Under the pieces are notes generated by a model. That model was not told where the DNA came from. It saw nothing but the letters and a program-made list of their open reading frames with translations, and did not search any database. A stretch of 64,000 nucleotides of DNA from positions 1 through 64,000 of the forward strand of contig JARFIW010001667.1 of assembly GCA_036346225.1 (NCBI GenBank), written 5' to 3'. Of this stretch, positions 6,248-57,718 are shown piece after piece; position 1 is the stretch's first letter; each line of letters begins with the position of its first letter. Both the position numbers and the translations under genes were made by a program. The DNA comes from Platerodrilus igneus. Its lineage: Eukaryota; Arthropoda; Insecta; Coleoptera; Lycidae.

Positions 6248-7606
6248 TGCATTATTTGAGCAGTTTGGACAATTTGTGGACGTAACTTCCCGCTGCCCAC
6301 AAGAATAACAAAATATTTCGCGTTTCTCCGGACAAGTATGAAACGAGTGACCGCGTCTTTTACAGTTGAAACAAATTGTCGAAAATTTTGCTGTGTTTTT
6401 AAAATAATTCGAAACGCCGGACCGTGGTAAATTATTATTAGAAAATGAACTCTGTCGAACTTGGCGTTCTTAGATAACTGGTACGTTGGCAGAATCAGAA
6501 TGTTCCTGTTTAATAAAATTAGGAGGCTTAATGTCTTCTAAAACCTTACAACGAGAAATCAAGTGGGAAATGTCAGTCACATCAACTAACGCCAGTTGCG
6601 TGGCATAAAAAGTCTGTAAATTTCTTTTAATAATTTTTATTTGTTCCCGGACTGGAATGGAATCTTCTAATTGAAAAAATAAATTTACCATGTTTGAAAT
6701 ATAAATGATAGGTGATTCCTCGGCGCCTTGCCGTTTAGATTTAATTAACATTAAAAGATTCTCTGCATAATCGGCTGAAAGAAAATCTTGTTTTAATTTA
6801 GAAATTAATTGTTCCCATGAATTTACTGTACATCGCGTTGCTCTATACCAATCCAATGCTGAACTGGTGAAAAGATCAATAGCCCCTTCGAAAAGGTCAT
6901 CTGACGAAACTTTTCTTGCAACTTGCAGTTCCTTGACGCGTTGAATAAAATTTAAAACCGATATAGAATCAGACTCACCCGAAAATTGTAATCCCCACTT
7001 GTGGATCGGGACTGAAATCGTTGTTTTATTCAAGGACTTAATTAGAGTACCTAAATCATTACTAGAAATCGAAACCGATGGGGTATTAATGGAAGAAACC
7101 GTTGATGCTCCAGGGCATAAAACCTCTGCTGTTGGTGTTATTGTAGGATCTTTATTATCACTAGCCGAACAATAAGAAGGGTTTTCACTAACCTCGTTTT
7201 CCCCGTTTACCTGTTCTAAAATCTCAAAAGCTCTAATGCACTAAGAATGCAGTTCTTTGTGTACCTCTGAAAATTCACTATCGAAATTGACATAATTTAG
7301 TCTCTTTGTTACATGAATTAATCTCGTGTTAAGTTTAATATAATCTTTCTTTTTAAGGAGAATGGTAAAAGAATTTAAAATGTTTTCTAATTCAAAAATC
7401 TTAAGTTTTAATAATTCAATTTCGTCCTTTTGAACGATTTCAATTTTTTCATACTTAGAAAAAACATTACTGTCGACTTTCTCAACAATGAGTTTTGTAC
7501 GCAATAATTTTCGCTTTTCTAACACACTTAACTTTGTTGGTTCAACGTTTCTAATTAAAAGCTCGTGACTAAGCTCGTCGCTTCTTAATGCTTCCACTAC
7601 ATACAT
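6239..7606 (-). pseudogene. Gypsy 1 gag, two in-frame stops
   Basis: Three open segments lie in one frame. ATG at 7604-7606 starts MYVVEALRSDEL, matching the short alpha-helical start (DEL..EL..R) common in insect Gypsy gag. A coiled-coil stretch rich in E, K and L follows. A TAG at 7238-7240 interrupts. The frame resumes through the capsid region (around 7033-6470, with SSALDWYRATR and FLSADYAEN). A TAA at 6467-6469 interrupts again. The tail carries two zinc knuckles at about 6250-6375: CFNCKRRGHSFHTC is a standard CCHC, and the second (CYSCGQ...NCPNC) lacks the usual histidine. The frame ends at TAA 6239-6241. Gag forms the particle and binds RNA. The stops are single-codon changes in an otherwise open frame. 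Confidence 0.8.
6242..6248 (-). promoter_or_regulatory. -1 ribosomal frameshift slippery heptamer (A AAA AAC)
   Basis: The gag frame reads GCA AAA AAC TAA. The heptamer A AAA AAC has the X XXY YYZ form and the gag stop TAA (6239-6241) follows immediately. Slipping back one base continues without a stop into the protease frame: 65 codons separate GGA at 6231-6233 from the codon at 6036-6038, in the same frame. A downstream stimulatory pseudoknot was not assessed. Confidence 0.8.
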
Positions 7607-7757
7607 GATTAAATAAAAGGTAAATGTCCACAATAGCAAAACCTGTTGCTAAATCACTAATATTAAACTGTTAATTCTGCCTAAATACTTAATAGTAATA
7701 TAGAAATAAAACAATCTAAAACTTCGTCCGTGTGTTGTTTACCATATTTAAAATTTT

Positions 7758-23451: not shown

Positions 23452-23456
<5 letters not shown>

Positions 23457-23496
<40 letters not shown>
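23457..23496. repeat. (TA)n tract, A1 / PLE junction
   Basis: Pure TA repeat between the CACAGCA end of A1 and the left end of the Penelope-like element. Confidence 0.95.
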
Positions 23497-23499
<3 letters not shown>

Positions 23500-23556
23500 T
23501 TAGTATAGATATCGGGGAAGCAGTCAATCTTGTCAAATTAATCAAACACTCTTTTA

Positions 23557-23601
23557 ATTATTCGAGCTTTCGATAAATTTATTATCTTCTTCAGGAATCT
23601 A
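23557..23601 (-). ncRNA. Hammerhead-like ribozyme motif, left PLE arm
   Basis: Minus strand has ATTC, CTGAAGA, a GATAA...TTATC hairpin, GAAA, then an AGCT palindrome and C-GAAT. The order and core match a type I hammerhead with minimal stem III, as known from Penelope-like elements. One extra A between the core and stem II makes activity uncertain. Confidence 0.45.
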
Positions 23602-24061
23602 ATAAATGCACATGAAAATAAATAATGTGTGCTGCTACTTAATACTACTTACGTTTATGTGAGTTTATAAATACATACAGCTATGGAAGTTGGACATTCA
23701 TTCAAGAATAAGAACAAACATGTCAGAAGTGACAGATGTTTACATAACCTAATTTTGTTGTTTAAACTAATGTAGTATAATTAAAGGTGTAAAAGTTGAC
23801 TAAACTATAATTGTAGGTATACAAGTTGACTAGACTAAAGTGTTGTAAATTAATTAAGGGAAGAAGTGGTCAAATATCTTAAATTTATTACCTAAGTTAG
23901 TACTTTCTACATAAATATGTAAAACTATAACGAGAACCATGCTAAATCCTGGAATATCGAAGTTGATGGCTATTCTTTTCTTATAAAGGACAATAAATAA
24001 GAATAAATGTTGCTTAAATTTTGAGTATCTGTTTTCTTGTTTAAAGAATTGCATTTTAACG

Positions 24062-24388
24062 TTATAGCAACCATTTCCAAAAATAATCGTTTACGATAAT
24101 GCTTTTCTCTAAAAACAATTTTGATATTGGCGCCATTGAATGTCCTGTCTCAATTACATGAGAAGAAAGAGCGTAAGATTTAATTCCTATTTTACAGTCA
24201 CTTTTATGTGAACTATGTCTGGCTGAAAGCCATCTAGACGTTTGTCCAACATAAAGGCTTTGGCAATCGAGACAGCGCACTTCATAGACCAAACCTGATT
24301 CCTGTAATTGTGGAGTGCGATCTTTTATTTTAGAAAATATATTCTTAATAGTGAGTACTGTTTTGTTGGTAATTCTTATATTGGGCAA
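24062..24388 (-). pseudogene. PLE GIY-YIG endonuclease, inverted partial copy
   Basis: Repeats the C-terminal endonuclease of the plus-strand copy (LVYEVRCLDCQS, YVGQTSRWLSARHSSHKSDC) with a handful of residue changes, one of which replaces the proline of VPCLDC. After SHVIETGHSM the frame diverges (small indel). It has no reverse transcriptase of its own. Confidence 0.8.
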
Positions 24389-24699
24389 ATCCTTAAATAT
24401 GTGGGCTAGTTTGTTTGTGAAGTTTTGTATATATGGGAGTGTATAAAATAATGAAGCTGTTTCAGAACTGCTATTATTATTGCTACTATGTAATGATAAA
24501 ATGGTTCTTGTATTTTCTGATTCAGATAATGTGTTAAATAATAATTTATTTATTAATCTAGGTGGGTAAGAATTTTGGATAAGTAGGTTTTTTAATTTGG
24601 TTAAATTATTTTTTTATAGGTATGGTGTTATAATGATACAACTACACTAATACCATTCAACAAAAAGTTAACAAACTCAGATCAGGCTTAAAAAAATTC

Positions 24700-25577
24700 A
24701 AAACATTACTTCAGAAGAAGCAAAAAAATTGACAATTTATGATTCTGTTGCGCCCAAGTTTTATGGGCTTCCTAAAATACATAAGCCGACACTCACACTT
24801 CGACCAATAATTTCATCAATTTCAGCACTTAATTAAAAAATTGCAGAAATAGTTACTAACATACTTACCAATGCTTACAATACTAACATTTCGTATTAAG
24901 TAAAAGATTATTTCAATTGTTCTAATTTTATTAATGAATACAAAATTCCAGAAGGGTATGTGTTGATTACCTTAGATGTGGTTTCCCTTTTCGATAATAT
25001 TCCAACTGAACTCGTGTAAAACACTATTGAAAATCATTGGGAAACAATTAGTTCCCACTGTAACATAAATAAAAACAATTTTATCGATTTGGTTGAATTT
25101 GTTTTCAACTCAACGTACTTCACATTCAATAATATCTACTATAAACAGACCGTGGGGACTCCTATGGGGGCTACCCTATCTCCTATAATTGCTCAATATG
25201 TTATGGATGATCTACTCGACACATGTATGTCCAAATTAAAGTTTGAATGTCCATTTTTTAAGAAGTACGTTGATGACTTGATATGCAGTATTCCCAAAGG
25301 AAAAGGTGAGGAAGTACTTCAACTTTTCAACTCATACAATTCATTTATTCAGTTCACTATTGAGGAAGAGAAAAACAACAGCGTCTCGTTTTTAGATATG
25401 CAAATAATTAGAACTAAAAATAATATTCTTATCAGCAATTGGGATCGTAAACTTATATCACCAGGAAGATACTTGAACTTTCATTTGTATCATCCTTTGA
25501 AAACGAAAATCAACCTAGTACTAGGAATGAAAAAACGGGTTGTATCATTATCACACCATACCTATAAAAAAAAATAA
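24700..25577 (+). pseudogene. PLE reverse transcriptase, in-frame stops
   Basis: The frame reads LTIYDSVAPKFYGLPKIHKP, then LRPIISSISA, LITLDVVSLFDNIP, TVGTPMGATLSPIIAQYVMD and FKKYVDDLICSIP, the ordered RT motifs of Penelope elements including the catalytic YVDD. Three stops lie before 25089 (after SALN, NISY and PTELV), and the last 163 codons are open. The RT N-terminus is missing. It would copy the element RNA at a nicked target. Confidence 0.85.
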
Positions 25578-26217
25578 TTTAACCAAATTAAAAAACCTAC
25601 TTATCCAAAACTCTTACCCACCTAGATTAATAAATAAATTATTATTTAACACATTATCTGAATCAGAAAATACAAGAACCATTTTATCATTACATAGTAG
25701 CAATAATAATAGCAGTTCTGAAACAGCTTCATTATTTTATACACTCCCATATATACAAAACTTCACAAACAAACTAGCCCACATATTTAAGGATTTGCCC
25801 AATATAAGAATTACCAACAAAACAGTACTCACTATTAAGAATATATTTTCTAAAATAAAAGATCGCACTCCACAATTACAGGAATCAGGTTTGGTCTATG
25901 AAGTGCCCTGTCTCGATTGTCAAAGCCCTTATGTTGGACAAACGTCTAGATGGCTTTCAGCCAGACATAGTTCACATAAAAGTGACTGTAAAAGAGGAAT
26001 TAAATCTTACGTTCTTTCTTCTCACGTAATTGAGACAGCACATTCAATGGATTACGCCAATACCAAAATTGTTTTTAGAGAAAAGCATTATCGTAAACGA
26101 TTGTTTTTGGAAATGGTTGCTATAACGTTAAAATCAAATTCTTTAAACAAGAAAACAGATACTCAAAATTTAAGCAACATTTATTTTTATTTATTGTCCC
26201 TTATTAGAAAAGAATAG
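25540..26217 (+). pseudogene. PLE linker and GIY-YIG endonuclease
   Basis: Follows the RT with a 38-bp frame overlap, so one frameshift separates the two domains. The region IRITNKTVLTIKNIFSKIKD is the linker. LVYEVPCLDCQSPYVGQTSR is the GIY-YIG module with its CxxC, then SARHSSHKSDC and HVIETAHSM with the conserved H. The glycine of GIY is represented by L-V-Y, a divergence seen in some PLEs. The endonuclease nicks target DNA for priming. Confidence 0.83.
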
Positions 26218-26582
26218 CCATCAACTTCGATATTCCAGGATTTAGCATGGTTCTCTTTATAGTTTTACATATTTATATAGAAAGTACTAACTTAGGTAAT
26301 AAATTTAAGATATTTGACCACCTCTCCCCTTAATTAATTTACAACACTTTAGTCTAGTCAACTTGTATACCTACAATTATAGTTTAGTCAACCTTTACAC
26401 CTTTAATTATACTGCATTAGTTTAAACAACAAAATTAGGTTATGTAAACATCTGTCACTTCTGACATGTTTGTTCTTAATCTTGAATGAATGTCCAACTT
26501 CCATAGCTGTATGTCTTTATAAACTCACATAAACTTAAGTAGTATTAAGTAGCAGCACACATTATTTATTTTCATATGCATT

Positions 26583-26630
26583 TATTAGATTCCTGAAGAA
26601 GATAATGAATTTATCGAAAGCTCGAATGAT
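26583..26630 (+). ncRNA. Hammerhead-like ribozyme motif, right PLE arm
   Basis: CTGAAGA at 26593-26599, a GATAA...TTATC hairpin, GAAA, AGCT and C-GAAT. It is the mirror of the motif in the left arm. Same caveat about the extra A. Confidence 0.45.
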
Positions 26631-26713
26631 TAAAAGAGTGTTTGCTTACTTTGACAAGATTGACTGCTTTCCCGATATCTATACAAAATTTCAAACGGTC
26701 GATATATCTTATT

Positions 26714-26723
26714 GGAATCACAG

Positions 26724-26767
<44 letters not shown>

Positions 26768-26777
26768 CTGTGATTCC
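26714..26777. repeat. (TA)n tract with flanking inverted GGAATCACAGC
   Basis: GGAATCACAGC at 26714-26724 is the exact inverse of GCTGTGATTCC just after the tract (26725-26765). The whole 64 bases can fold into one hairpin. It marks the PLE / A2 junction. Confidence 0.85.
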
Positions 26778-29900: not shown

Positions 29901-31418
29901 TAAATGGATAGAGGAAAACACACCTAATAAAAGCTTTTATTTAGACATTCAAAAACATGAACTTATGATGCAATTTCGAAAAATAAGGGCATTTCACTCA
30001 CCGGATAGCCGAAAACGCCACTGTCAGCACTCATAGAAAAATAGAAACATTTGAATCAAAACGTAAAAATATTACAAAAATTACAAGAAACCATTATGTG
30101 TTCAACTTACTCAATAATACCACATCAAATAATTGATAATTATTGGGCAGAAGAGAAAGTATTGTGACACGTATACTTTAGTTACTTAACACTCGGTTAT
30201 ATGTCAGATATTACTTGGACACTAGCAAAAGGATTGTAACGGTAGACCCGAACTACATATAACACGGATGCCGTGATAGCAATAGTTGTAGATTAGGGTC
30301 GGGGAGAAGTAACAAACCTAAAAAACGATCAGCACTGCAATCCGCTGGAAGAAACACGGTATAGTAAACCTACAAATACAATTAACTACGGCAGGATATT
30401 CATCTGTCAGATAAACGCTCAAAGGTAATATATGAAAGCAACATTAAGCAGGGTATTAGTTCCGCCTATGATGGTTGGGTTTAACAGGTCACTTCCAAAT
30501 GCCTACTATTAATACAATACGTGAACATGAATAATTAAGTCTAGTGTTTTCTTTAAATAAAAGGGCTACTATAATTCTGTGTTAAGTACTCAGAGGTAAT
30601 AAATGTTGTCAAAGTAGTTCACAAGAGAAACCGCCAAGGTGGCGTACAAGCGTGGACTCACAAGCTCGTTGATTCTAAGCTATCAATGTTGAAACTATGT
30701 AAATATACATAGTTTCAACATTGATAGCTTAAAATCAACGAGCTTGTGAGTCCGCTGTACAATTAGTTTATGCACAACTTAGGGTACATATACAATAGGA
30801 GTTGAATAGTAAAACACTAGTTCTATTACAACGGTCGTGTGCTTACTAGGAGCACCCATGTACCTTGGAAGTAGCTATTCCATTTTAAGAACTCTATATT
30901 TCCTGCATCTAATCGTACAATAGGTATGGATACTAATGGTCATAAGGTTGATACGTTAGAAAAATACAGATTTGTTTACATAAGACTTCTTTATCTATCT
31001 CTTACTTGTTAAATAACTAGTCCAAAGTAAACAGAGAATAGAAAAAACTTATTTGGGTAATAGGTTAATCCTGTAGTACGTGTACAGTATAGGATGGTCA
31101 GCAAAGCATAGATCATAATCCAAAAGCAATAGTAGCTACATCAGCGAGATGGAAGGTTCACATCTCATCAACAACGGAATCCATCTAAACCCAACAAGAA
31201 CCTAGCAATCGCACACAAATAGGTTGGATATACAAAGTGTGTATGCGTTTGGTTACCCGTTTAAATCTACGGTAATGTTAAAAAGGACATTATATTTGCT
31301 TTAAATAGTCAAGTACAACAGGAAATAAACAGCAAGATATCTATTTTTTTTGATAACCTTTTTAAAACTAGTAAAGATGACAAGTAGTTGCTTAGATCTA
31401 AACAAGCACAAGTTATCA

Positions 31419-31419
<1 letters not shown>
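29901..31419. other. No gene seen; contains a strong hairpin
   Basis: Decayed sequence, possibly the LINE 3' end in its first part. Apart from the inverted repeat at 30654-30753 I see no structure. Confidence 0.4.
30654..30753. repeat. Near-perfect 48-bp inverted repeat with 4-nt loop
   Basis: Arms 30654-30701 and 30706-30753 pair over 48 positions with a single mismatch, around the loop AATA. Outer bases are GGACTCACAAGC and GCTTGTGAGTCC. Confidence 0.92.

Positions 31420-31467
<48 letters not shown>
31420..31467. repeat. (TA)n tract, left edge of the hammerhead repeat
   Basis: Pure TA repeat. Confidence 0.95.
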
Positions 31468-31470
<3 letters not shown>

Positions 31471-31634
31471 ACAAGTTATTTGCAGTCCGCAATAAGAAAA
31501 TTGTATATAGTAAGATGTATCTGTAAACAAACTCTTATGAAAATAATAAAGCCATTGACAAATACAAATCGGGCTGGTAGTTATATAGCCATTAAAAAAA
31601 CATTAGCTTTATTACTTCATAGGGGAGGAAACAT

Positions 31635-31675
31635 CCACTGACCATGGTTTCGGCTTGTTAGCCTCGTCAGAGTGG
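31635..31675 (-). ncRNA. Type I hammerhead ribozyme, copy a
   Basis: Minus strand order: stem I CCACT, core CTGACGA, stem II GGCT-AACA-AGCC, GAA, stem III ACC-AT-GGT (self-complementary), cleavage C, stem I AGTGG. All core bases and all three helices are perfect. Predicted cleavage is 3' of the C opposite 31640. The 3-bp stem III suggests activity as a dimer. Confidence 0.85.
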
Positions 31676-32115
31676 AATAGTTCCCAAGAACCCTATGAAG
31701 TAATCGAAGCTATTATAATGATATAATTTCGAAACAATCACTGTACTATGGCAAAAGTAAATAAAACCGCCATCAGGTGATAAAACACCAACACTACTAA
31801 AGTGTGGAAGTACAGAATTGAACCGAAAGTACATAATAAATTTTATAAATGACTATAAAAGTACGTCTGGCCTTTGAGATTTGCGGAATGTTACAGCAAA
31901 ATTTATTTGCATACGTAACAAACCTTCTCGTGGCGACACCCGGGTTCATTATTATTATGTAGTTTCGGTTCAATTCTGTACTTCCACACTTTAGTAGTGT
32001 TGGTGTTTTATCACCTGATGGCGGTTTTATTTACTTTTGCCATAGTACAGTGCTTGTTCCGAAATTATATCATTATAATAGCTTCGATTACTTCATAGGG
32101 TTCTTGGAAACTATT

Positions 32116-32156
32116 GCACTCTGACGAGGCTAACAAGCCGAAACCATGGTCAGTGG
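32116..32156 (+). ncRNA. Type I hammerhead ribozyme, copy b
   Basis: Same core and stems II and III as copy a. Stem I is GCACT/AGTGG, losing its outermost pair. Predicted cleavage is after C32151. Confidence 0.82.
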
Positions 32157-32625
32157 ATGTTTCCTCCCCTATGAAGTAATAAAGCTAATGTTTTGTTAAT
32201 GGCTATATAACTACCAGCCCGATTTGTATTTGTCAATGGCTTTTATTATTTTCATAAGAGTTTGTTTACAGATACATCTTACTTCATATACAATTTTCTT
32301 ATTGCGGACTGCAAATAACTTGTCTTTGTTTATTTGAATTGCCCTTGGGGCATGAACCCGGGTGTCGCCACGAGAAGGTTTGTTACATATGCAAATAAAT
32401 TTTGCTGTAACATTCCGCAAATCTCAAAGGCCAGACGTACTTTTATAGTCATTTATAAAATTTATTATGTAGTTTCGGTTCAATTCTGTACTTCCACACT
32501 TTAGTAGTGTTGGTGTTTTATCACCTGATGGCGGTTTTATTTACTTTTGCCATAGTACAGTGATTGTTTCGAAATTATATCATTATAATAGCTTCGATTA
32601 CTTCATAGGGTTCTTGGGAACTATT

Positions 32626-32666
32626 CCACTCTGACAAAGCTAACAAGCCGAAACCATGGTCAGTGG
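32626..32666 (+). ncRNA. Hammerhead ribozyme, copy c, mutated core
   Basis: The core reads CTGACAA instead of CTGACGA, so the catalytic G8 position is lost. The first stem II pair is also broken (AGCT/AGCC). Likely inactive. Confidence 0.8.
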
Positions 32667-32792
32667 ATGTTTCCTCCCCTATGAAGTAATAAAGCTAATG
32701 TTTTGTTAATGGCTATATAACTACCAGCCCGATTTGTATTTGTCAATGGCTTTTATTATTTTCATAAGAGTTTGTTTACAGATACATCTTAC

Positions 32793-32796
<4 letters not shown>

Positions 32797-32835
<39 letters not shown>
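32797..32835. repeat. (TA)n tract, right edge of the hammerhead repeat
   Basis: Pure TA repeat. Confidence 0.95.
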
Positions 32836-32841
<6 letters not shown>

Positions 32842-33475
32842 CTATGGTTTACTTAGTTACCACGTATTACGGGTTTATGAGATGTGCAAACAGTGTTAAC
32901 GTGCTAGTGAACTATAATTGAGAGGATTTTCTAAGAGACAGGCGCTGAACGTAACAAATCCCCTCCAATCAAAACGTCGTGATAGGAAAACAAAAGCAAC
33001 AAAGCAGGCAGTACAGTACTAATAAAAAGTAAAAACAAAAAAAATTCGTTTGAGAAAATCCAAAGAAAAGCAAAAAACCAACAAAAATTAACTTACATCC
33101 GGTTCGAGTGACCTATATACATCAATAGGATGAACCAAAAAAAATTTGCTTAAGAAAACTACAAGAAACACTCAAAAACCAACAAAAGAGCTTTTATTCG
33201 GCTCGAAGCACAAGTATACCCAACTAAATCTAAAATTTTAAAGGACAAAAGAAAAGGAAAAGTAGAAGGTTGCAATCATCAAAGCAAAGATGGAATGGTC
33301 TAACACTGAAGAAAAGTTATAGGAGGAGGATATCTCTAGTAAAGACAAAGTAAAGTGTTCAACTTCAAGAAAAGAGATTGGTTTCTCTTGAAGAAACCCA
33401 AAGTAAGAAAAGGAACGAGGAAGAAAACCAACGGTACAAAAGAAAGTGTGAGTGAGTGTGTGTGAGTAGTAGGGT
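32836..33475. other. No gene seen
   Basis: A-rich sequence with two loose repeats of AAAACCAACAAAA (about 33075 and 33175). No supportable ORF. Confidence 0.4.
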
Positions 33476-33560
33476 AAGGCCGGTCTGACTTCAAAACGGT
33501 GTACGCGTATGTTTTTCCATGTAACATACGCGTGCACCGTTTTGAATCTAGACCGGCCTT
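33476..33560. repeat. 36-bp inverted repeat with 13-nt loop (MITE-like)
   Basis: AAGGCCGGTCTGA... at 33476-33511 pairs with 33525-33560, with about four mismatches. GACCGGCCTTATA recurs at about 33606 and a shorter ACGTGTGT/ACACACGT hairpin follows at 33634-33657. The cluster looks like a palindromic MITE or its tandem remains. Confidence 0.8.
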
Positions 33561-33778
33561 ATATACTTTCAATGTAAAATATGTGTGGACATGTTTTGAA
33601 GTCAGACCGGCCTTATACTACTTTCAATGGAACATACGTGTGTGACTTCAAAACACACGTGTGCTACGTTGAAAAATGTAAGTGCAGTGAAAATGTGGAG
33701 CTGTTTTGAATTCGGTCTTCTAGCGAGAAGTTATAAAATAGGTCAGATGCAAAATATCGCATTCAAGTCAATTGTGTT

Positions 33779-40959: not shown

Positions 40960-43900
40960 ATGAATTCTGAAACAGTAGCCGAAGTTAGTAGTGATATTTT
41001 AAAGTTAACAGTAAAATGTATGAATCTTATCAAATCAGTTGACGAAAATATGAAACACATGATAATTCTAAAGACAAACATAAGTTTATTAAAGCTTGCG
41101 ATCAAAACAAAGTATACGAAGACAATCGCTAGGAATTTCGTAGTAGGCTGGAGTCTAATCTGGCACATCTTAAAAGTTACCTTGTACGATTCAGACACTT
41201 GAAACGCTCTTTGGAATACCCAGGTAAAGGTAGTGATGCAACGCTTTATAGAGGTCATATTTGACATTTGATTTGGCATGATTTACAATCATGTTTTGAA
41301 AGTCGAATAATTACGGGACTTATTACCAATTTAAGCTATAAAGATCCTCTAGTGTTCTTAGACAAGGCGTTCGCTAGTTTTAAACGTCAATGTTGAAAGT
41401 TAATGTAATATTGACCGCTAACTTTGTTAAGCCTACAACTGGTGAAATAGATTTGAAGACGTTTCCTACTGCAAATCGTCACATCGATATAAACACCAAT
41501 CTCAAGCAGTGGTATAAGGAGAACGTATTGGACAAGATATCGAAGCGATTGGAAGAATTTAGTGAAAAGGATTTAGGTTGGACAATCCAAGAAGTTTTAC
41601 ACTTGAAGGTAAATATAAACAATCATGATCCGCTTAAAGGAGGGTGTTCAACGTTTGTTCCGGTTTCGGACTTTATAGCAAAAAAATGAGCTGTGGTAAA
41701 TGTAATAAATAACGACCAACATTGCTTTCTTTGGGCCTTGGTTTCCGCTTTACATCCTGCTAAACAAAATATTCATAGAATATCTAGCTATCCACATTTT
41801 GATACAGTATTACGCTACAATTTAATTCAGTTTCCAATCACCTTAAAAAACATAAAAAAAATTGAGAAGCTCAACAATCTCGCAATTAACTTATATTGTG
41901 TAGAAAATACTAAAATACTGCCATTTTGTTTAAGTGAAAATTTAGGAAAAATAGAACCTATTAATCTGTTAGTTTTAAATAATAATGATTCCTTACAATA
42001 TTCTCGTCCGACAAATGCTAATGAAAATCACTTTCATTTTACTTGGATTAAGGATATGTCAAAATTATTTGCAAAACAGTTGTCTTCATATCACCACAAA
42101 TTTTTTTTTTTGTTATAGATGTTTAAATAATTTTAGTATAGCGGCATTACTTAAGCATCATTCGAATCATTGCGAAAAACAGAATACTTGCTCAATAAGA
42201 TTATCCAAAGAATCCCAAAAGTATCTAAAATTTAAACATTTCCACTACCAAGAAAAGGTATCATTTGTAGTTTATGCAGATCTCGAATGTATATTAGAAC
42301 CATGCAATGAGCCAAAGGTAATATTAAACACAGTTCGTTACCAAAGACATATACCCTTTGGTGTAGCGTACTATTTGAAATGTTCGTATGATAATAAATA
42401 TTCCAAATTTCAATTGTAACGCGGAAAGGATTGTATAGAATGGTTTGTTGCTCAATTGAAACTGATTTCAGAAACGACGAATAAAATTTTCTGTAACCCA
42501 AAACCTATTAATCCTTTAACAGAAGAACAATATTCAGCATTTAAATTTGCCCCTCACTGTCACATATGCAATAAACCTTTTAGTATAGATGATATTAGAG
42601 TTCGCGATCACTGTCACTTTACAGGTAAATTTCGAGTAGCGGTTCATCAAGATTGCAACATCAATTATCACAATTCTTATATGATACCAGTAGTTTTTCA
42701 TAACTTATCAGGATACGATTCACATTTCATTATTAAAGAAATCGCGTTAGGGTTATCAGGTTCGTTAAGCATTCTACCAATAAATAAGGAAAAATACATA
42801 TCTTTTACAAAATATGTAAAAGGTACGAAAGTTAGTTTTAGATTTATCGATTCATTCAGATTTATGACATCTAGCATCGAAAAATTAGCTTTCTACTTAG
42901 ATGATAATAAAAAATCCATCACCAGGGAAAATTGTAACACTGATAATGAGTTTCGGTTACTTACGCGTAAAAGCATATTTCCCTATGATTACATTAACTT
43001 TTGGGGTAGGCTCAATGAAACCAATTTAACCTGTAAAACAGCATTCTTTAATCGTTTGCGCAATGAAGAAGTTTCAGATAAAGACTACAATCATGCCAAA
43101 CACGTTTAGCAAGCAATTAATATAAAAACACTAGGGGACTATTCAGACCTATATTTAAAAACAGATGTACTGCTCTTGACTGATATATTTGAAAACTTTA
43201 GAAAAACTTGTATGTTTACGTATAAGTTAGATCCACTTCACTACTTTACGACTCCTGGTTTAGCTCTAGATGCAATGTTAAAAAGGACGAACGTTAAACT
43301 CGAGTTGCTTACTGATATTGAGAAAATAATGTTTTTAGAACGGGGAATTGGTGGTGGCGTTTCTCAATGTTCGAATATTTATACCAAAGCAAAAAACAGA
43401 TATATGAATGCAGATTATGATCCGAATTTCGATTCTAAATATTTAATGTATTTTGATGTTAATAATTTATGTGGGGCTGCAATGTCTGAATATCTTCCAT
43501 AGGGAGAATTTTAATTTTTAGATGGCACCAATCCAGATATAGTACGTTTAGACATACTTAATATTCCCGATGATTCTGATGTAGGATATATTTTTGAATG
43601 CGATTTACACTACCCAGTATCTTTACATGAAATTCACAGTGACTTACCGTTGGCGCCTGAACATATGATACCACTAGTACCTTCTAATAAATAAAACCTA
43701 AAAAAATTACTTACAACTTTATATCCAAAACTCAACTATATTATTCACTACAAGAATTTAAAAATGTATTTAAGCTACAGTTTAGAACTGAAAAGGATTC
43801 ATAAGGTTCTTCGGTTTAAACAAGCTCCTTGGTTAAAAGAATACATTGATTTGAATACGAAATTAAGACAACAGTCAAAAAACAGATTCGATATATGCTT

Positions 43901-44910
43901 CTATAAAAATATGATAAATTCGGTTTATGGAAAAATGATGGAAAACGTACAGAAATGGAAAGATGTGAAATTAGTGACCGAATGGGAAGGACGGTTTGGA
44001 GCGCGTAGTTACATAGCGAAACCTAATTTTTACAGTTGCACTGTGTTAGACAAAGATCTTGTCTTAATAGAAATGAATAAATTAGAGGTTTATTTAAACA
44101 AACTCATTTATGCAGGTTTCTCTATTCTAAATATTTCGAAAACCTATTTATATGAATTTCACTATAGTTATATAAAATCGCAATTTGCTTACAAAGCAAA
44201 GCTTCTGTACACAGATACGGATAGTTTGATATACGAGTTTAGCGTTGAAGATATTTACTCTTATATCAAACAAGATATTCATAGATTTGATACTTCCGAT
44301 TACGACCCCCATAACAAATATCATATCCCATTATCAAATACAAAGGTTCCTGGTATTATGAAAGATGAAAACAATGGTGATATCATGCTAGAGTTTGTAG
44401 GGCTTAGATCTAAAATGTACACTTACAGAGTTCAAGATAGGGTAATAAAAACGTCAAAGGGATCTTCTTTAGCAAGTATTAAGCAAATTTCTTTTGATGA
44501 TTATAAGAATGCTTTGTTTTATAAACAGACTGTACAGAAACAGCAATGTTTAATTAGATCAGTCAAACCATTACGTTTGACTGAAAGAACTTGACTTTTA
44601 TACATTTTTTAATCGATATAATATACTTTTTTTCTATACTGTTGGTAAAATCTACGTGAAGTATTTATATTAAATAATAAACTGACCTGTTAGAAAAAAT
44701 TAAAAATTTGCATCGTTTTCTGAAAAAAAATTGCATACTTTTTTCAGTACAACTGAAAGAACTTGACTTTTATACATTTTTTTTAATCGATATCAGACTG
44801 TACAGAAACAGTAATGTTTAATTAGATCAGTCAAACATGATGTGTTTACTATAAAACAAAACAAAATTGTTCTTAATCCAAGTGATGATTAAAGAATTCT
44901 TAGGACCTCA
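40960..44910 (+). pseudogene. POLB: Polinton protein-primed family B DNA polymerase, heavily broken
   Basis: Motifs run in order across shifted frames. The N-terminal extension has EFRSRLESNLAHLKSYLVRF, CFESRIITGLITNL, NVILTANFVKPTTGEIDLKT, DLGWTIQEVLHLKVNIN and CFLWALVSALHP. A C..C...H..C finger lies near 42116-42175. Exonuclease I is VVYADLECIL (about 42270). A Cys/His cluster is RVRDHCHFTGKFR. Exonuclease II is HNLSGYDSHFI. Motif A is [17 protein letters not shown] (43450-43500, with C where Y is usual). Motif B is NMINSVYGKMMEN and motif C is YTDTDSLIY (about 44208). I count at least three frameshifts and eight in-frame stops (for example TAG after CNHAKHV at about 43108, TAG/TAA after SEYLP). 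A 225-bp insertion splits the last 40 codons. It would replicate the linear element with a protein primer. Dead copy. Confidence 0.88.
44526..44836. repeat. Insertion in POLB flanked by 43-bp direct repeats, holding repeat S
   Basis: 44526-44568 and 44794-44836 are the same 43 bases of POLB coding sequence with one mismatch. The 225 bases between contain another pair of direct repeats, CTGAAAGAACTTGACTTTTA at about 44581 and 44754, and 44637-44735 matches repeat S at 35405. Removing the insert and one repeat brings POLB motifs back together. Confidence 0.85.
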
Positions 44911-45507
44911 ACCACTGATACTAAACCTTGGGGGTAAAACTATACACTCAGAAGTGACTTGTAAAGCTTCAACCACTAGCTCAAATAAATAATGCAATTT
45001 ATTTTATCCCGATTAACATATAATATTTTTTTAGTTATAAAAACTTCAATGTTATGTTTATACCTGCACAAGTACACCGTTTTCTTTTTTGGATGTGTCT
45101 AAAAATAGGATACCTTTCAATCTGTTCGAGTTGAACTATATAAGTATAAATGTATTGTAGAGAAAAATAGTAGTAACCGTTCTGTTAAAAAAAATCCAGT
45201 TTGTTATTAACATACCAGTTAGTTTATTTAAGAAATGTATAACAAAACTTTTATTTAAATTGCTTATAAATATTAGCCGGTCTACTGACCCTATTTGAAA
45301 ATGTTTATGACTGTTTACTACTAAATCACTTAATAATTCCAACATGTAAAAAATATTTAAGCAAAAATTATTATTATAACCCATTAACCATCAAACATTT
45401 GATATTGTAAAAAACATGTAAAATAATAAATAGACTGTGATTGCTAAAGATTTATTGTTTTTTCTCTTTTCTTCATAATTTGTAAAGGTACAGTAATAAT
45501 AAAGAAA
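44911..45507. other. Spacer between POLB and capsid gene
   Basis: Converging 3' ends of POLB (+) and the capsid gene (-). AT-rich. A 82-codon minus frame (45384-45136) has no recognisable content. Confidence 0.4.
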
Positions 45508-46722
45508 TCATAATATTCTTATGCTGTTTGAGAGTGGATTGTATTTGACTATCTTATCATGAAGTATAAGGCAATGACAAGATGTATTTGGCAAAACGTT
45601 TCTACTAGTTCCAAATTCTAATCTAATATCGACAGTACCAGATTTTAACGCTTCGTTTTGTCTAGAACAATCTATGACTACTAATGGCGCAATACTTCGT
45701 AAATCTTCAGGGTTAAAAAGTGGCTCATTTTCTTTTTCGTAGTATGATTGCTGAAACTGGGCATACATCTCATATAACAACGCAGTTTGTTTATTCTCGA
45801 ACTTCAAATTTAAGTTATCGTACGGGAAAATTTCCGAATTTAAATAGAGTTTCATGTTGGTTAAATAGCAATGATCAAAACGACTGTAGTTGCTCATGTA
45901 TCTATTTTTTTGGTTAGTTTGGAAACCAACAATCACAAATCTTGGTTTTTCTAATTGTGTTGTTGTTTTAATGTTCCATGTATGACGTTGCGTTTTTTGT
46001 AGAAGTTAATATTCATGCAACTCCCATCCTCTAAACAGAATATGCAAATCCTGATTTTGTGCAACGCATTCTATTAAATTAATTCGTTGAGTATCATCAA
46101 CGGCTACGTGCGGCATTTTCCATAAAACTTTGTTTAAAACAACTTTTATTTCTTCATCGGGTGTAGGATTAATTATAGCATTAGTATCAAAACTAGAACG
46201 TAGTAAAACTAACTTATGGCGGAGATTTAAAATAACTTTTTTAAACTCTTTGCATAATCCGAGAGCCATTGAAAAATTTATTGCAACGTTAAAATTCCCA
46301 TTGGCATCAACTATTTGCGAATCATCCATAGGAAACCACCCAGCGTTTTGTAAATGTTTACTTTGATTGCTATTATATGAAACATATCCCTTCATTATAG
46401 ACGTTAATCCAGGATTCCGAACACGATCTACAATGACACCACCAATCTCATATCTAATTTTATCAAAAAGCAGCAAAACCCCATTATTTACAAACTTTGC
46501 TGTCTGAAACGGCGTTCCATCTGTTTTAATTAATTTGCCTTCTATGTACAGCATACTCTTTGATGGTAAGGTGTAAACATCTTGTTGTTGTATAGGGATT
46601 CGAATTTCATTATTATTGTTTAAAGATGTGTTAGCATAAGGCTGATGAGTATGTTTTTCAATATTATCAATTGCATTGTCGAAGTAAACTTTTTCACGCA
46701 CGTTCAGTATTTCACTATTCAT
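45508..46722 (-). pseudogene. MCP: Polinton major capsid protein (double jelly-roll), one frameshift
   Basis: ATG 46722 opens MNSEILNVREKVYFDNAIDN. Conserved pieces follow: SMLYIEGKLIKTDG, FDKIRYEIGGVIVDRVRNPG, MKGYVSYN and IECVAQNQDLHILFRGWELHEY, ending at 46006. The frame shifts just after HEY and resumes with QKTQRHTWNIKTTTQLEKP, PRFVIVGFQTNQKNRYMSN, SRFDHCYLTNMKLYLNSEIF and APLVVIDCSRQNEALKSG to 45508. That is the layout of the arthropod Polinton/adintovirus capsid protein. The full length of about 400 residues is right if the single shift is ignored. It would form pseudo-hexameric capsomers. Its minus-strand neighbours are the other virion genes. Confidence 0.85.
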
Positions 46723-46872
46723 TCTACTTTTTAATTAAATAAATGCAGTTTTAACGATTGTAGAAACTGCCGGTTTTGTGTTGTGAACGGTTTTGAAACA
46801 ATCAATTGAGTGTCGATTGCTTTGAAATTTCTAGTATTTATAGTAATTCTTGACATGTTGCGTGCATTATAC

Positions 46873-47627
46873 TTAATACTCATGGTTATTGTAGATTTTT
46901 TTTAAATGCAACCTTACAGTTAGCAGTTCTCCTCTGAAATTAACTAAATTTCTATTTTGATCTAACACTTTAACTATTATTTCATTTATTATACGTGACC
47001 TGATTGGTAGATATAAAATCGTAGGTAGGCACTCGACAATTTTAAAACCTGCAGGTACTTGAGGAAAAAATTCATGTATTACATGGGCTGGTTTAATATT
47101 TAAATAGGATCCACTTGCAATATTAGAATCGATTAAAACTGCATTCACTTTACAAATGTTGATCGCGTAGCCTGCTTGATGCGTGGCATATGATAGCAAT
47201 TTTCGTGGATTGAGACCGAGTATAGAACCAATTGAATTCTTTTTGGTAAAATCCACATCTTCACTACATTTAATACTACATTTAAGTGTATTATTGTCAG
47301 CTGTAATTTCTATATACACTGGCGTCTTTCTATAGCGCTTTGTGATTGTTTCATACGACCACGCCATCTTTTATCGCCTAAAGCTTTTTGAAGATATTTA
47401 TTAATTTCTCTAATTTTATAAGCACCTTCAGGTATTTCTATGAATTCTCCGTTAGATCCATAATAAAATTTATGATTGATTCCTTTTTCAATGTTTGGAA
47501 TTGTGTTATAAAACTCAAAATTTGTTAATTCTAATACGTACTCCGAATCATTACCCAAGTTTATAGGCGGATTAAAGTTGCTTGTTAAAACTGAAGTGTT
47601 TCCCGTTAGAGTAAAAGTGTACGACAT
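46873..47627 (-). pseudogene. Polinton minor capsid (penton-like) protein, one frameshift
   Basis: ATG 47627 (MSYTFTLTGNTSVLTSNF) leads to YVLELTNFEFYNTIPNIEK, FYYGSNGEFIEIPEGAYKIR and INKYLQKALG, then the frame is lost near 47320-47370. It resumes with VYIEITADNNTLKCSIKCSE, VDFTKKNSIGSILGLNPR, SGSYLNIKPAHVIHEFFPQV and VNFRGELLTVRLHLKK, stop 46873. This matches the second, single jelly-roll capsid gene (PY in early Polinton naming) found next to the major capsid gene. It is expected to form capsid vertices. Confidence 0.8.
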
Positions 47628-47646
47628 GACAACTTCATACGCAGTT

Positions 47647-48092
47647 CTATGTACTGCTTAGAAATTGTAAGCATAAATGTCTGCAAAACACAGTACCGTA
47701 CGATTGTTCTTGGTTAAAGTTATAAAGAATTTTACATTTACTCTCGCTGTTCAAATAACTTATCAACTCTGTTGGCGGTCGCAGGTTTCCGTAGCTGTCA
47801 ATAGCGCTACTACCGTATTTTTATAAGAGGTCCAATGCGTGCCTAAACCTTCTATTCCATCTAAATTAATTATACCACATTTTTTTAAATTAACTTTCTT
47901 GGGAAGATTGTTTCCCATGAACACTCCACGGAAATATGGTACTTCTATTTGCTTAACAAACTCTATTAATTTTACATTGCTTAGTGCTCCATTAGGTAAA
48001 ATCAAGTTGCGTTCCTTTGAGGTTTTGCTGGGGCTAAAAAAAGACCAAAACCTTTTTATAAGGTTTGATGTACATGCCGTTTCCGACTGCAA
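47647..48092 (-). pseudogene. PRO: Polinton adenain-like cysteine protease, one frameshift
   Basis: IEFVKQIEVPYFRGVFMGNN, then KKCGIINLDGIEGLGTHWTS with the catalytic histidine in GTHW. After THWTSYKN the frame shifts (around 47815). DSYGNLRPP, NQEQS and FCRHLCLQFL (catalytic cysteine) continue to the stop at 47647-47649. The H...D...Q...C order matches adenovirus-type C5 maturation proteases. No clear ATG: the frame is open from 48092 and overlaps the upstream gene, and the first methionine is inside GVFM, so the start was lost or is non-canonical. It would cleave virion precursors. Confidence 0.8.
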
Positions 48093-48816
48093 TGTCCTCC
48101 ATTGCCTTGTTATGACGTTGTTTTTCCGCTAGTTGTTCCTTAGCTATTTTAGTATCTGAAACTGCTTTTGCAACAGCAGCTACACTTCCAGTAAGAGAAC
48201 CAAGGGCGCTTAGGCCTGCAAAAATTGATATTAGTGGTAGAAAACCCCCTGTTTTAGGAATTGATATAATACGAGCTGATTTAATATGCTTCTTTTGTTT
48301 TGCTGTATTGGCGGCCTTAATTGCTATGTTGATTGCATCCATAATATTAGATCCTGCTTGTTTGATAATACTTTTAATACCTAGCGTACTTCTTATTTTA
48401 CGTTTCTTTATCAGTTTTCTTATTTTATTGATATGTTTTTTTGTTCTCAGCGATGCACAGGCACCCATACCAAGTTTTACTTTAGCTTTTATTGCGGTAG
48501 CTACTCCAAATGCTGCTGCTTTTTCACCTATAGACGAGTCACCAGAATTTATTCTTTCTGTAGCTAACTGAGCTAACTTCGAATCTGCTTGATGGCGTTT
48601 AGATAGATCCTTTTCTTTGGAGTATGCAATATCGTGCTCCTTACAAGCTTCGTCTAAGTTGTTTATTCCCTAGTCTCCCCGAGCTAACTGTTTGATTAGT
48701 TTTCTGCCCGGACCGCAAAATTTGTAACCCGGAATATGCGCTTCAAATGGTAACTTGTTAATTACAGTATTTAACAGTCCGTTCCCAGTAGTTTTAGAAT
48801 TATTATATGTAATCAT
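48034..48816 (-). pseudogene. PLA2-like / pX-like virion protein of the Polinton, one in-frame stop
   Basis: ATG 48814-48816 opens one frame to the stop at 48034 (783 bp), broken only by TAG at 48670-48672. N-terminal residues carry PFEAHIPGYKFCGPGRKLIK (calcium-loop-like YxFCGPG) and, just after the stop, NNLDEACKEHDIAYSKEKD with the HD catalytic pair of phospholipase A2-like domains used by several virus groups to breach membranes. A basic linker follows. RIISIPKTGGFLPLISIFAG then begins a glycine/alanine-rich hydrophobic segment, and RHNKAMEDIAVGNGMYIKPY the tail. GGFLP resembles an adenain-type cleavage context, fitting processing by the neighbouring protease. The domain reading is by motif; membrane activity is inferred. 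Confidence 0.75.
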
Positions 48817-50569: not shown

Positions 50570-51003
50570 CTACAGAAAATATAGCTGTAAAAGCTCATAC
50601 AGAAAATTTGAAATGTGACATTTAAGTTAGATTTGTATAATAAAGAAGTGTCACTGAAAATTTGTTTGATTTTGTTGATTTTATAACATATAGGTATTAG
50701 AGCAAGATAATTGTAACCCGTAATTGTACATTAATTCCGAAACTAAATAGTGGTGGGGCCAATACAAAATAAATTTGTCTAAAATAATGGATAAACAAGA
50801 CTTTTTTTAACAAGATCTGGAAGAAAATACGGACGGAAAGATGATGTGATAGAACCAGTAGTTCAAGGTGAACAGAGTGAAAGAGAGATCAATATAGAAG
50901 TTCTAAGTGAACCGGAAATTGACACCGAACCACAGGTAATTATTATGGAACGAAGGAGAATTCCGGAATACAAGAAAATACGGGTACCGGTGAAAATCCT
51001 GAC

Positions 51004-52542
51004 ATGCACATGATTTTGAGTTTTCTAAAAGGAATGAGTACAAAACTCGAAGGTATGGATATAAAGCTTGAGGGGAAGTTTATTGAAGTGAAGGAAAGCC
51101 AACGAGAGTTAGCTGTCAAATTAGAAGATAATCAAAGAAAATTAACCCAACAATTAGGAGAACACATGGAAAATTTCAAATTAGAGATTCGACAACAAGT
51201 GCAAAACTTTAGAACTTCGTTAAGAGCAGATTTCCAAGAAGATGTGATAAAAGTTAGACAGGAATTTCGAGATAAAATTATAGCCAACAATGAGATTATC
51301 AATTTAGAAGTAGAAGGTATGAGAAAGGAGGTCCAGACCATTGAGACTCGAAATGAAGAGAGGTATGCACAAGCGTTAACCATTTTAAATCAAAATAAGG
51401 AAGAAGAGGTAAAATTTAGGCAAGATTTGGTACAACACTTGGAAACAAACAGAAGTGAAGTAAATGTCAATTTAGAAACGTTTGAAAGAACTGTCACCGA
51501 ATTACAAAACAAGGTTAGGAATTCTGAACATGGTCAATTGACAGGGTGCAGTCATGTCAACGATTATAAACTTACGCGAGAAATATTGCCAAAATTTGAA
51601 GGATGAAAATGGGAACAGCCGATGTCTTTTCTGGAGAAGTTAGATGTGCTAGTCAAACATGAAAAGGAGGCGGTAAAGTTTCAAATAATTAATTCAACAC
51701 TGATTGGAAATGCTGAAAAATGGCATGGGATTGTTAAAGGTACGTATGGTAATTATGAAGAATTTAGACAATTATTTATGGAGCAGTACTGGAGTAATTC
51801 GCAACAAAGGGGTATACGTATCAATCTCATTTCAGTAACGTATGGAAAATATGGTGGTACAAGAGAAGAATACGTGATTGAAAACTACAATCAAGCAAGA
51901 CATTTAATACCAAAGATGTTGGAGCAAGACATCATACAATTGTTGGGACGACATTTGGATAATGAGATAAACAAGGCAATTGCGATTCAAAATGTTAAAG
52001 ACCTTAAGGAATTTTTAGAAATCATTCGAAATTATGACATGGCTAGGTCAATAGAAGAAGAAAAAAATGCTCAAAACAGACAGTCTAATGAAAACAGGGA
52101 TAGACTAAATTTTAAAATTAAATATATGGACCGACAGAGGGCATTAAATGGAAGGAATTTCCAGGAAAATACGGGAAGATTCCACAGAAATAATTTTCGA
52201 CCGCCGTTATACAACAACAGGTACACGGACCGATTCTACCAACAACAACCGCAAGGACAAAGATATGAATTCTGGATTATGAATGATCAAAGGGGAGACC
52301 ATGGATATGCTCCACAGCAAGTGAGAAGTCAGGATCGATATAATAGCAACGTGCAGCCTAGAAATAATGATAATTTGCAAAACAATGTTCAGAAATATCG
52401 AGGAGGACCAGGAGAAGGCAACGCACGCATACAACAAGTGATGGTGTCAAACTCTGATGAAAGAAGCGACGATAAAATGAAAATAGTTCAGAAACACCCA
52501 GAGGGCCTGAATCATGGGCTAAAGAGAACTTCGATTTATTAA
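51004..52542 (+). pseudogene. Gypsy C gag, unit 1, split by TGA
   Basis: 51004-51606 is a long coiled coil (MSTKLEGMDIKLEGKFIEVK and onward). TGA at 51604-51606 interrupts. The same frame continues with KWEQPMSFLEKLDVLVKHE, IGNAEKWHGIVKGTYGNYEE, FMEQYWSNSQQRGIRINLIS and TREEYVIENYNQARHLIP (capsid), then a long N/R/Q-rich tail to 52542 with no zinc knuckle. Coding sequence also extends upstream of 51004, but the true start is unresolved because of a T-run. 319 codons after the stop are open. Confidence 0.8.
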
Positions 52543-55718: not shown

Positions 55719-56023
55719 TAAAAGAAATTGGCGTCCATCGTGTAGGCTACAGAAAATATAGCTGTAAAAAGCTCATACAGAAAATTTGAAATGTGACATT
55801 TAAGTTAGATTTGTATAATAAAGAAGTGTCACTGAAAATTTGTTTGATTTTGTTGATTTTATAACATATAGGTATTAGAGCAAGATAATTGTAACCCGTA
55901 ATTGTACATTAATTCCGAAACTAAATAGTGGTGGGGCCAATACAAAATAAATTTGTCTAAAATAATGGATAAACAAGACTTTTTTTAACAAGATCTGGAA
56001 GAAAATACGGACGGAAAGATGAT

Positions 56024-57718
56024 GTGATAGAACCAGTAGTTCAAGGTGAACAGAGTGAAAGAGAGATCAATATAGAAGTTCTAAGTGAACCGGAAATTGA
56101 CACCGAACCACAGGTAATTATTATGGAACGAAGGAGAATTCCGGAATACAAGAAAAATACGGGTACCGGTGAAAATCCTGACATGCACATGATTTTGAGT
56201 TTTCTAAAAGGAATGAGTACAAAACTCGAAGGTATGGATATAAAGCTTGAGGGGAAGTTTATTGAAGTGAAGGAAAGCCAACGAGAGTTAGCTGTCAAAT
56301 TAGAAGATAATCAAAGAAAATTAACCCAACAATTAGGAGAACACATGGAAAATTTCAAATTAGAGATTCGACAACAAGTGCAAAACTTTAGAACTTCGTT
56401 AAGAGCAGATTTCCAAGAAGATGTGATAAAAGTTAGACAGGAATTTCGAGATAAAATTATAGCCAACAATGAGATTATCAATTTAGAAGTAGAAGGTATG
56501 AGAAAGGAGGTCCAGACCATTGAGACTCGAAATGAAGAGAGGTATGCACAAGCGTTAACCATTTTAAATCAAAATAAGGAAGAAGAGGTAAAATTTAGGC
56601 AAGATTTGGTACAACACTTGGAAACAAACAGAAGTGAAGTAAATGTCAATTTAGAAACGTTTGAAAGAACTGTCACCGAATTACAAAACAAGGTTAGGAA
56701 TTCTGAACATGGTCAATTGACAGGGTGCAGTCATGTCAACGATTATAAACTTACGCGAGAAATATTGCCAAAATTTGAAGGATGAAAATGGGAACAGCCG
56801 ATGTCTTTTCTGGAGAAGTTAGATGTGCTAGTCAAACATGAAAAGGAGGCGGTAAAGTTTCAAATAATTAATTCAACACTGATTGGAAATGCTGAAAAAT
56901 GGCATGGGATTGTTAAAGGTACGTATGGTAATTATGAAGAATTTAGACAATTATTTATGGAGCAGTACTGGAGTAATTCGCAACAAAGGGTATACGTATC
57001 AATCTCATTTCAGTAACGTATGGAAAATATGGTGGTACAAGAGAAGAATACGTGATTGAAAACTACAGTCAAGCAAGACATTTAATACCAAAGATGTTGG
57101 AGCAAGACATCATACAATTGTTGGGACGACATTTGGATAATGAGATAAACAAGGCAATTGCGATTCAAAATGTTAAAGACCTTAAGGAATTTTTAGAAAT
57201 CATTCGAAATTATGACATGGCTAGGTCAATAGAAGAAGAAAAATGCTCAAAACAGACAGTCTAATGAAAACAGGGATAGACTAAATTTTAAAATTAAATA
57301 TATGGACCGACAGAGGGCATTAAATGGAAGGAATTTCCAGGAAAATACGGGAAGATTCCACAGAAATAATTTTCGACCGCCGTTATACAACAACAGGTAC
57401 ACGGACCGATTCTACCAACAACAACCGCAAGGACAAAGATATGAATTCTGGATTATGAATGATCAAAGGGGAGACCATGGATATGCTCCACAGCAAGTGA
57501 GAAGTCAGGATCGATATAATAGCAACGTGCAGCCTAGAAATAATGATAATTTGCAAAACAATGTTCAGAAATATCGAGGAGGACCAGGAGAAGGCAACGC
57601 ACGCATACAACAAGTGATGGTGTCAAACTCTGATGAAAGAAGCGACGATAAAATGAAAATAGTTCAGAAACACCCAGAGGGCCTGAATCATGGGCTAAAG
57701 AGAACTTCGATTTATTAA
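56024..57718 (+). pseudogene. Gypsy C gag, unit 2, TGA plus frameshifts
   Basis: Same domains as unit 1. The N-terminal coiled-coil frame is longer here (open from 56024) because one A differs near 56156. It ends at the same TGA (56783-56785). Two further shifts, at a G run near 56990 and an A run near 57243, break the capsid part. The R/Q-rich tail closes at 57718. Confidence 0.78.

Follow-up and report, generated by a model that had tools for sequence, protein, structure and literature searches.

Unequal insertion ends of a hammerhead retrozyme in the beetle Platerodrilus igneus suggest copying by Penelope-like machinery

The DNA analysed here, referred to below as the window, is a stretch of 64,000 nucleotides from the lycid beetle Platerodrilus igneus (assembly GCA_036346225.1, contig JARFIW010001667.1, positions 1 to 64,000, forward strand), and it contains at 31468-32795 a non-coding element that carries hammerhead ribozymes. 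This element is quite probably a non-autonomous, non-coding metazoan retrozyme, copied by the machinery of a Penelope-like element (PLE) from multimeric or circular RNA. The shape of its insertion suggests that a PLE enzyme copies the retrozyme into the genome; the circularity of the RNA and its copying by a PLE protein are both points that we infer. The initial annotation of this DNA had mentioned PLEs in passing as known carriers of such ribozymes, and it is through the insertion ends that this link becomes the main point. The mixed inverted and tandem layout between TA tracts that it had described is also found, and it is read here as an insertion signature of PLE type, not as a kind of array of its own.

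The repeat unit of the element is 510 bp long and is numbered so that position 1 follows the predicted ribozyme cleavage site. The element abuts a (TA)24 tract on the left (31420-31467) and an (AT)20 tract on the right (32796-32835), neither of which has a strand. Its left, inverted arm (31468-31949, minus strand) comprises about 0.95 unit, with the outward 3' end at unit position 176, termed tailed, and the inner 5' end at unit position 201. A head-to-head junction with 2 bp of filler (31950-31951) joins unit position 201 to 311, and the right arm (31952-32795, plus strand) continues for 1.66 units to an outward 3' end at unit position 134, termed tailless. This arm contains one complete unit, from predicted cleavage site to predicted cleavage site (32152-32661, plus strand), in which arithmetic from the unit positions places an internal copy of start site 1 (unit 134) at 32285 and the tail element (unit 148-176), which ends at start site 2, at 32299-32327, both on the plus strand. 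The longest open reading frame (ORF) fully within the element encodes 69 amino acids, in agreement with the earlier claim that it has no ORF, and the GC content of the 2-kb bins containing it is 0.341 and 0.349.

The repeat, first described as a retrozyme-like 510-bp unit, turned out to belong to a dispersed multicopy family, whose arrays reach about 36 units in the DNA that was fetched. In the 2.71 Gb of the genome searched, there are 341 perfect matches to the 36-nt ribozyme core (control 0) and 523 matches, with up to two mismatches, to a 28-nt part of the ribozyme (control 0); a 231-bp query gave 1510 first-look candidates, the best 40 of which, once scored, yielded 42 matches at 99-100% identity. 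Arms and ends were mapped at the window and at 41 fetched loci. A first set (L009-L028) was taken from the ranked matches of a DNA query that included the tail, a choice biased towards insertions having a tailed copy; a second (L029-L048) consists of the first 20 clusters, in contig order, found with a ribozyme-only pattern (L032 and L045 are also in the ranked list); and three later loci (L066-L068) were picked because both strands were visible in the list. About 36 direct units run over 18.8 kb in L009-L010, with poly-T interruptions and no inverted arm within the fetched DNA; this array was left outside the mapping of ends.

The evidence that carries the proposal lies in the outer ends. Twenty-nine insertions consist of a minus arm followed by a plus arm, that is, head to head, and 53 of their 58 outer ends (counted by hand) lie within unit 129-139 or 172-182; to the base, the element ends at 134 (CTTACTTC) and 176 (CTTGTCTTT), 42 nt apart. 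In 24 insertions both ends lie in these canonical ranges, and 23 of the 24 have one end of each class, for which a 50:50 draw gives a one-sided binomial probability of 1.5e-6. The rule had been recorded from eight insertions before the second set of loci was fetched; it holds in 9/10 insertions of the first set and in 14/14 of the second, ribozyme-only set. The inner ends are scattered across the unit and the junctions commonly join different unit positions, as with 201 and 311 in the window, with gaps from -4 to +16 (18/24 between -2 and +4). The tailed arm is the longer one in 10/23 insertions, and 20 of 46 arms exceed one unit, so that one linear monomer could not have yielded them. Alternating TA was seen by eye on both sides in 22/24; the right flank of L016 and L017 is other AT-rich DNA. 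The same polarity was seen by eye in the mixed-strand ribozyme clusters, which run minus then plus in 14/14 cases among the listed places of the 523. Left outside the 24 are the inverted insertions without two canonical ends (L011, L012, L014, L030 and L036), L029 (ends 176/139, arms split by about 320 bp), the second site of L032 (rearranged, 72-82% identical), L068, L021 and the other single-arm rows, as well as L009-L010. It was also observed that L016 and L017 (C1087), about 20 kb apart, have a common right flank and right end and differ in left end and inner junction, the ends of L017 being 139/173.

A spread at the DNA level as a hammerhead satellite, by unequal exchange or extrachromosomal circles and with no reverse transcription, would account for long direct arrays such as the one of about 36 units in L009-L010, whose within-array divergence is 0.6%. 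However, the insertions are dispersed, their outward 3' ends lie at two fixed positions with the inner ends scattered, and DNA circles predict scattered breakpoints on both sides, which makes this explanation very improbable. Twin priming during target-primed reverse transcription by LINE (non-LTR) enzymes likewise gives inverted 5' parts, which counts in favour of a LINE as the mobilising enzyme. The (TA)n found only 3' of several single-arm copies could then be read as a 3' repeat tail, and the accessible text of the work on animal retrozymes leaves LINEs open as carriers (PMC7229834). Nevertheless, two internal 3' ends, one per side, in 23/24 insertions, and the same anatomy in a neighbouring PLE, speak against mobilisation by target-primed reverse transcription with occasional twin priming, and we regard it as improbable. 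Self-priming, in which a first cDNA folds back and is copied into an inverted repeat, has been proposed for the inverted repeats of PLEs (Arkhipova 2013, PMC3846280, in its accessible part) and would also explain the variants common to both arms that are described below. With self-priming, the outer ends should be equal and the inner junctions palindromic, whereas the outer ends are unequal in 23/24 insertions and the arms have unequal lengths and meet at differing unit positions (201/311), so that it is scarcely to be believed here.

The neighbouring PLE lies at 23498-26714, about 5 kb from the retrozyme, with a 1151-bp inverted arm. This arm (23498-24642, minus strand) has its tailless outward end adjoining an (AT)n tract (23452-23496), and the direct arm (24643-26714, plus strand) has its tailed outward end 10 bp from a (TA)n tract (26725-26765). 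The plus strand encodes a reverse transcriptase (RT) piece at 25020-25577 (RVT_1, E 8e-8) and an endonuclease-like piece at 25531-26217, which has no Pfam match and was recognised by eye as GIY-YIG, and carries at 26593-26628 a hammerhead-like motif, also read by eye (CUGAAGA, stem II, GAA, the palindrome AGCU and C17). The two outward ends, at 26688 (tailless) and about 26714 (tailed), are some 25 nt apart, one of each. Among six two-armed PLE insertions, four have one clean end per class (the window, L057, L061 and L065) and a fifth, L058, pairs a tailed end with a tailless one that stops about 10 nt short; L055 (right end outside the fetched DNA) and L060 (weak minus match) were dropped, and L056 and L064 belong to loci that are in the count already. 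The genome is rich in GIY-YIG matches (6529 first-look candidates, the best 150 scored), and opposite-strand pairs within 5 kb run minus then plus in 10/10 cases, by eye, among 149 listed matches. Open frames of up to 641 amino acids surround GIY-YIG matches, so some PLE copies may be intact. As an observation of its own, the (TA)n tracts at 26714-26777 and in L057, L061 and L058 are in places framed by ATCACAGC or GCTGTGAT, a framing which suggests that they sit within another family of palindromic repeats.

These ends can be compared with those of the PLE studied in the anole. According to the accessible text of Frangieh 2024 (PMC11167929), this element cleaves each strand of AT-rich DNA and, in vitro, initiates reverse transcription internally, at two neighbouring sites; the stretch between the two sites corresponds to the tail that its genomic copies optionally carry. 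In the reading preferred here, the retrozyme transcript would be cut at its type I hammerheads into unit-length RNA, and a putative PLE protein with RT and endonuclease would cleave an AT-rich target, in most cases (TA)n, on both strands. Reverse transcription would then begin inside the RNA at two sites 42 nt apart, one per target end, and the two cDNAs would extend toward each other, exceeding one unit on a circular or multimeric template. They would stop at variable places and be joined, either over an overlap of at most 4 bp or through some filler bases, and the outcome would be inverted arms, tandem units and outward-facing 3' ends.

Variants common to both arms bear on the template. The arms of one insertion share 17 non-consensus sites over 26 two-armed loci (in L036 the arms do not overlap), and when arms were permuted between loci the mean was 3.8 common sites, the maximum 12, and none of 2000 permutations reached 17. 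The arm alleles agree at sites 255, 281 and 282 in 8/8, 7/7 and 9/9 loci respectively; sites 281 and 282 are adjacent and hence not independent. Variants present in both arms and at no other locus were found in L024, L033, L035 and L066, and L015 has one both-arm variant that was seen once elsewhere. Mean divergence between opposite arms is 1.1%, and divergence within two long arrays is 0.6% and 0.9%. As for the PLE, private variants common to both arms number four in the window, three in L055 and one in L061, with none in L057, L058, L060 and L063; in 164 pairs of PLE arms from different loci the mean was 0.33 per kb, with up to two sites per pair among the top pairs listed. Judging from these alleles, the arms of an insertion would derive from a single RNA or else from several RNAs of the same homogeneous locus, two cases that the data do not separate.

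Two forms of copying by the same PLE-type enzyme are thus to be considered. In the first, a PLE dimer would sit on one RNA circle with its two RT subunits side by side, some 42 nt from each other, and both would copy the circle at once, each using as primer a different strand of a single cut (TA)n. Since two polymerases cannot start on the same nucleotide of one RNA, each two-armed insertion would receive one tailed and one tailless end. We put this forward tentatively, as somewhat less than evenly probable; if true, it would account for the tail that Penelope elements have long been known to carry optionally, and the retrozyme would serve as a natural record of the PLE mechanism. In the second there is no circle, and the arms would be copied from a linear RNA multimer, or else from two RNAs that a single source locus produced. 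Here the accessible text on the anole PLE is favourable, as that element used unprocessed RNA and needed no ribozyme cleavage in vitro (PMC11167929), and a homogeneous source array would also yield both-arm variants. On the other hand, the both-arm variants of L015, L024, L033, L035 and L066 are simplest with one template, although a common source locus may account for them too, and the version without a circle is likewise a tentative one, with a likelihood short of even.

Copying by PLE machinery, in either form, would bear on which enzyme copies retrozymes, and two-site, one-of-each ends would be diagnostic of the carrier; this end signature lends itself to a check in the genome of any animal, provided that it is well assembled. 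Besides, the rule of unequal ends and the both-arm variants constrain models of Penelope integration.

Three type I hammerheads, one on the minus strand and two on the plus strand 510 bp apart, had been reported in the element, and their coordinates and layout are correct. Copy a (31634-31676, minus strand, predicted cleavage between 31640 and 31639) and copy b (32117-32155, plus strand, predicted cleavage between 32151 and 32152) were recovered with intact cores by a motif scan, as claimed, and are the two intact hammerheads that it finds in the whole 64 kb; the scan, applied to the window only, found no motif in 200 dinucleotide shuffles of the window on both strands. Copy c (32626-32666, plus strand, 510 bp downstream of copy b) reads CUGACAA instead of CUGACGA; it has therefore lost G8, which is replaced by A, again as reported, and is predicted to be inactive. 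The earlier stems stand as stem I CCACU/AGUGG, stem II GGCU/AGCC and stem III ACC/GGU, with the correction that copy b has GCACU, which reduces its inner stem I to 4 bp. Stem I continues outward through internal loops into a 10-bp helix, and for an 86-nt region of copy a the predicted fold, at -35.0 kcal/mol (z -4.55), has stems I and II. An alignment of 137 copies, taken from the window and 40 fetched loci, shows a nearly invariant core: C3 is kept in 134, U4 in 137, G5 in 136, A6 in 137, G8 in 135, A9 in 136, G12 in 132, A13 in 137, A14 in 136 and C17 in 137. Relaxed selection at the 5' end of this alignment was considered and is not proposed, as the higher divergence there may be due to copies that are truncated.

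Stem III is an 8-nt palindrome with a loop of only 2 nt, and the hammerheads therefore probably act as dimers. In the model, two core strands cofold as a double hammerhead at -29.2 kcal/mol (one strand, -11.1); the energy model forbids a 2-nt loop, so the cofold shows compatibility with a dimer and not the necessity of one. Circular folding of the unit with the dead copy c gives -146.2 kcal/mol, compared with -98.5 (sd 5.3) for 30 single-base shuffles.

A divergent subfamily (L030, L021 and L032) is about 72-89% identical to the window unit, and a corresponding 26-nt stretch occurs 645 times in the genome (control 0). An intact core (CUGAAGA, GAA) is present only in two L030 copies, those of L021 and L032 being damaged. 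The palindrome that forms stem III is ACCGGCCGGU in L030, ACCGGU in L032 and ACCAUGGU in the window, and stem III is imperfect in L021. The first pair of stem II is G-C in the window, A-U in L021, G-U in L032 and a U-U mismatch in L030; one U-A pair is gained in the subfamily and the remaining pairs are the same as in the window. Stem II of the subfamily was considered as compensatory evidence, which a recount leaves thin. With regard to the rest of the unit, the window unit was compared with the two L030 arms: the tail element 148-176 is identical at 28/29 and 29/29 positions, the whole aligned length at 311/366 and 232/287, the ribozyme side 460-510 at 37/51 in both arms and unit 340-450 at 100/110 and 50/54. 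By sequence the tail is thus the best-kept stretch among those compared, though other stretches are also kept. Folded alone, the tail region gave no significant structure (z 0.47 and 0.25), and a tail hairpin read by eye was set aside: energy gives it no support, and it rests on sequence conservation which other parts of the unit share.

Several observations weigh against the proposed retrozyme and its copying by PLE machinery, and are gathered here. Among the insertions, L016 has two tailed ends (172/173), in five of the 29 inverted insertions an outer end falls outside the two ranges (one of these insertions is truncated by the end of the locus), and single-arm insertions exist, about half of which have (TA)n at the 3' side only. 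Such one-sided loci (L020, L025, L026, L027, the first site of L030, and L041) imply that part of the (TA)n may be made or attached during insertion. No empty (TA)n site was seen at the mapped loci, and target-site duplications are unreadable in flanks that are mostly (TA)n. Between the arms of one insertion, 103 variant sites are unshared, compared with 17 shared, as later mutation would give, and the mean same-arm divergence over all loci (1.5%) equals that between loci (1.5%). On the PLE side, L063 has no tailed end and a left end about 14 nt short; the PLE loci came from a query that included the tail, or were picked from its list, so that tailed copies were favoured; and no PLE tail matching the retrozyme tail was found, in a comparison that did not cover the 3' regions of other PLE families. 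According to the accessible text on the anole PLE, bulk start sites are alike on the top and bottom strands, and ribozyme mutants had no effect on in vitro insertion (PMC11167929).

As regards the ribozyme, stem III is absent from the minimum-energy fold of the 86-nt region of copy a, and a single core strand folds without a proper stem III. The covariance-model search, for which the initial annotation had named the lack of a hit as refuting its reading, gave no Rfam match at gathering score anywhere in the window, so that this condition formally applies; with E up to 10 in 31400-32900, RF00008 was the sole hammerhead family listed, scoring 17.6 and 14.9 bits where the cut-off is 48.5. The near-invariant core, the core and stems kept in intact copies of the subfamily and the predicted dimer fold argue that this lack of a match reflects the sensitivity of the model. 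Pairing appears largely kept in the divergent subfamily, and evidence of covariation is thin.

Compared with the metazoan non-LTR retrozymes in the accessible text of Cervera and de la Pena 2020 (PMC7229834), where PLEs are a strong candidate carrier, the family described here likewise has a hammerhead of type I (by motif), a non-coding sequence of low GC (<50%) and tandem units, few to many, dispersed in many copies. It differs in the size of its unit, 510 nt against the published 170-400 nt or so; the discussion of the same paper considers circles of 150 to over 1000 nt from hammerhead-flanked repeats. Head-to-head arms with two fixed outward ends beside (TA)n are not described for those retrozymes in the accessible text, and the terms 'inverted' and 'target site' have no occurrence in its main text. 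Metazoan retrozymes are further marked by the absence of LTR, PBS and PPT and by expression as circular RNA. Their target-site duplications, when present, exceed 4 bp, whereas the (TA)n flanks leave them unreadable here. The newt hammerhead satellites and the axolotl retrozymes (partly PMC7229834) reportedly have a weak stem III as well and are probably dimeric; their unit size differs.

The likeness to PLEs, as far as the accessible texts describe them (PMC3846280, PMC11167929), comprises inverted arms, an optional 3' tail at one inverted pLTR, 5' truncation, an AT-rich target, a hammerhead and two RT start sites, and the retrozyme tail of 42 nt follows the same pattern as the published PLE tail. 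Unlike PLEs, the element has no ORF for RT or GIY-YIG endonuclease and is not a PLE itself; its stem I is long, with internal loops, and its two sites follow the predicted cleavage site downstream at 134 and 176 nt. A 2020 review states, in its accessible part, that no motif reveals the carrier of retrozymes (PMC7761336), and no report of PLE-type ends on a retrozyme was found in the literature searched, whose reach took in few subscription papers.

Other repeats and coding elements were observed in the window. About 700 bp from the retrozyme, a 48-bp inverted repeat (30654-30753) is 98% complementary with a 4-nt spacer, and a 55-bp tandem repeat of 2.4 copies lies at 33514-33642. Retroelement ORFs at 4185-7648 are of Gypsy type by eye, among them one of 688 amino acids with RT and RNase H, and two nearly identical coding stretches, Gag-like by eye, are found about 5 kb apart at 50923-52542 and 55973-57718. 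Maverick/Polinton-like genes occupy 41690-48669 and 60849-63246: the first region has a DNA polymerase B piece (PF03175, just above the cut-off), double jelly-roll capsid pieces in two adjoining ORFs (PF21738) and a phospholipase-A2-like ORF (PF08398), and the second was assigned by eye only, its two tested ORFs giving no Pfam match.
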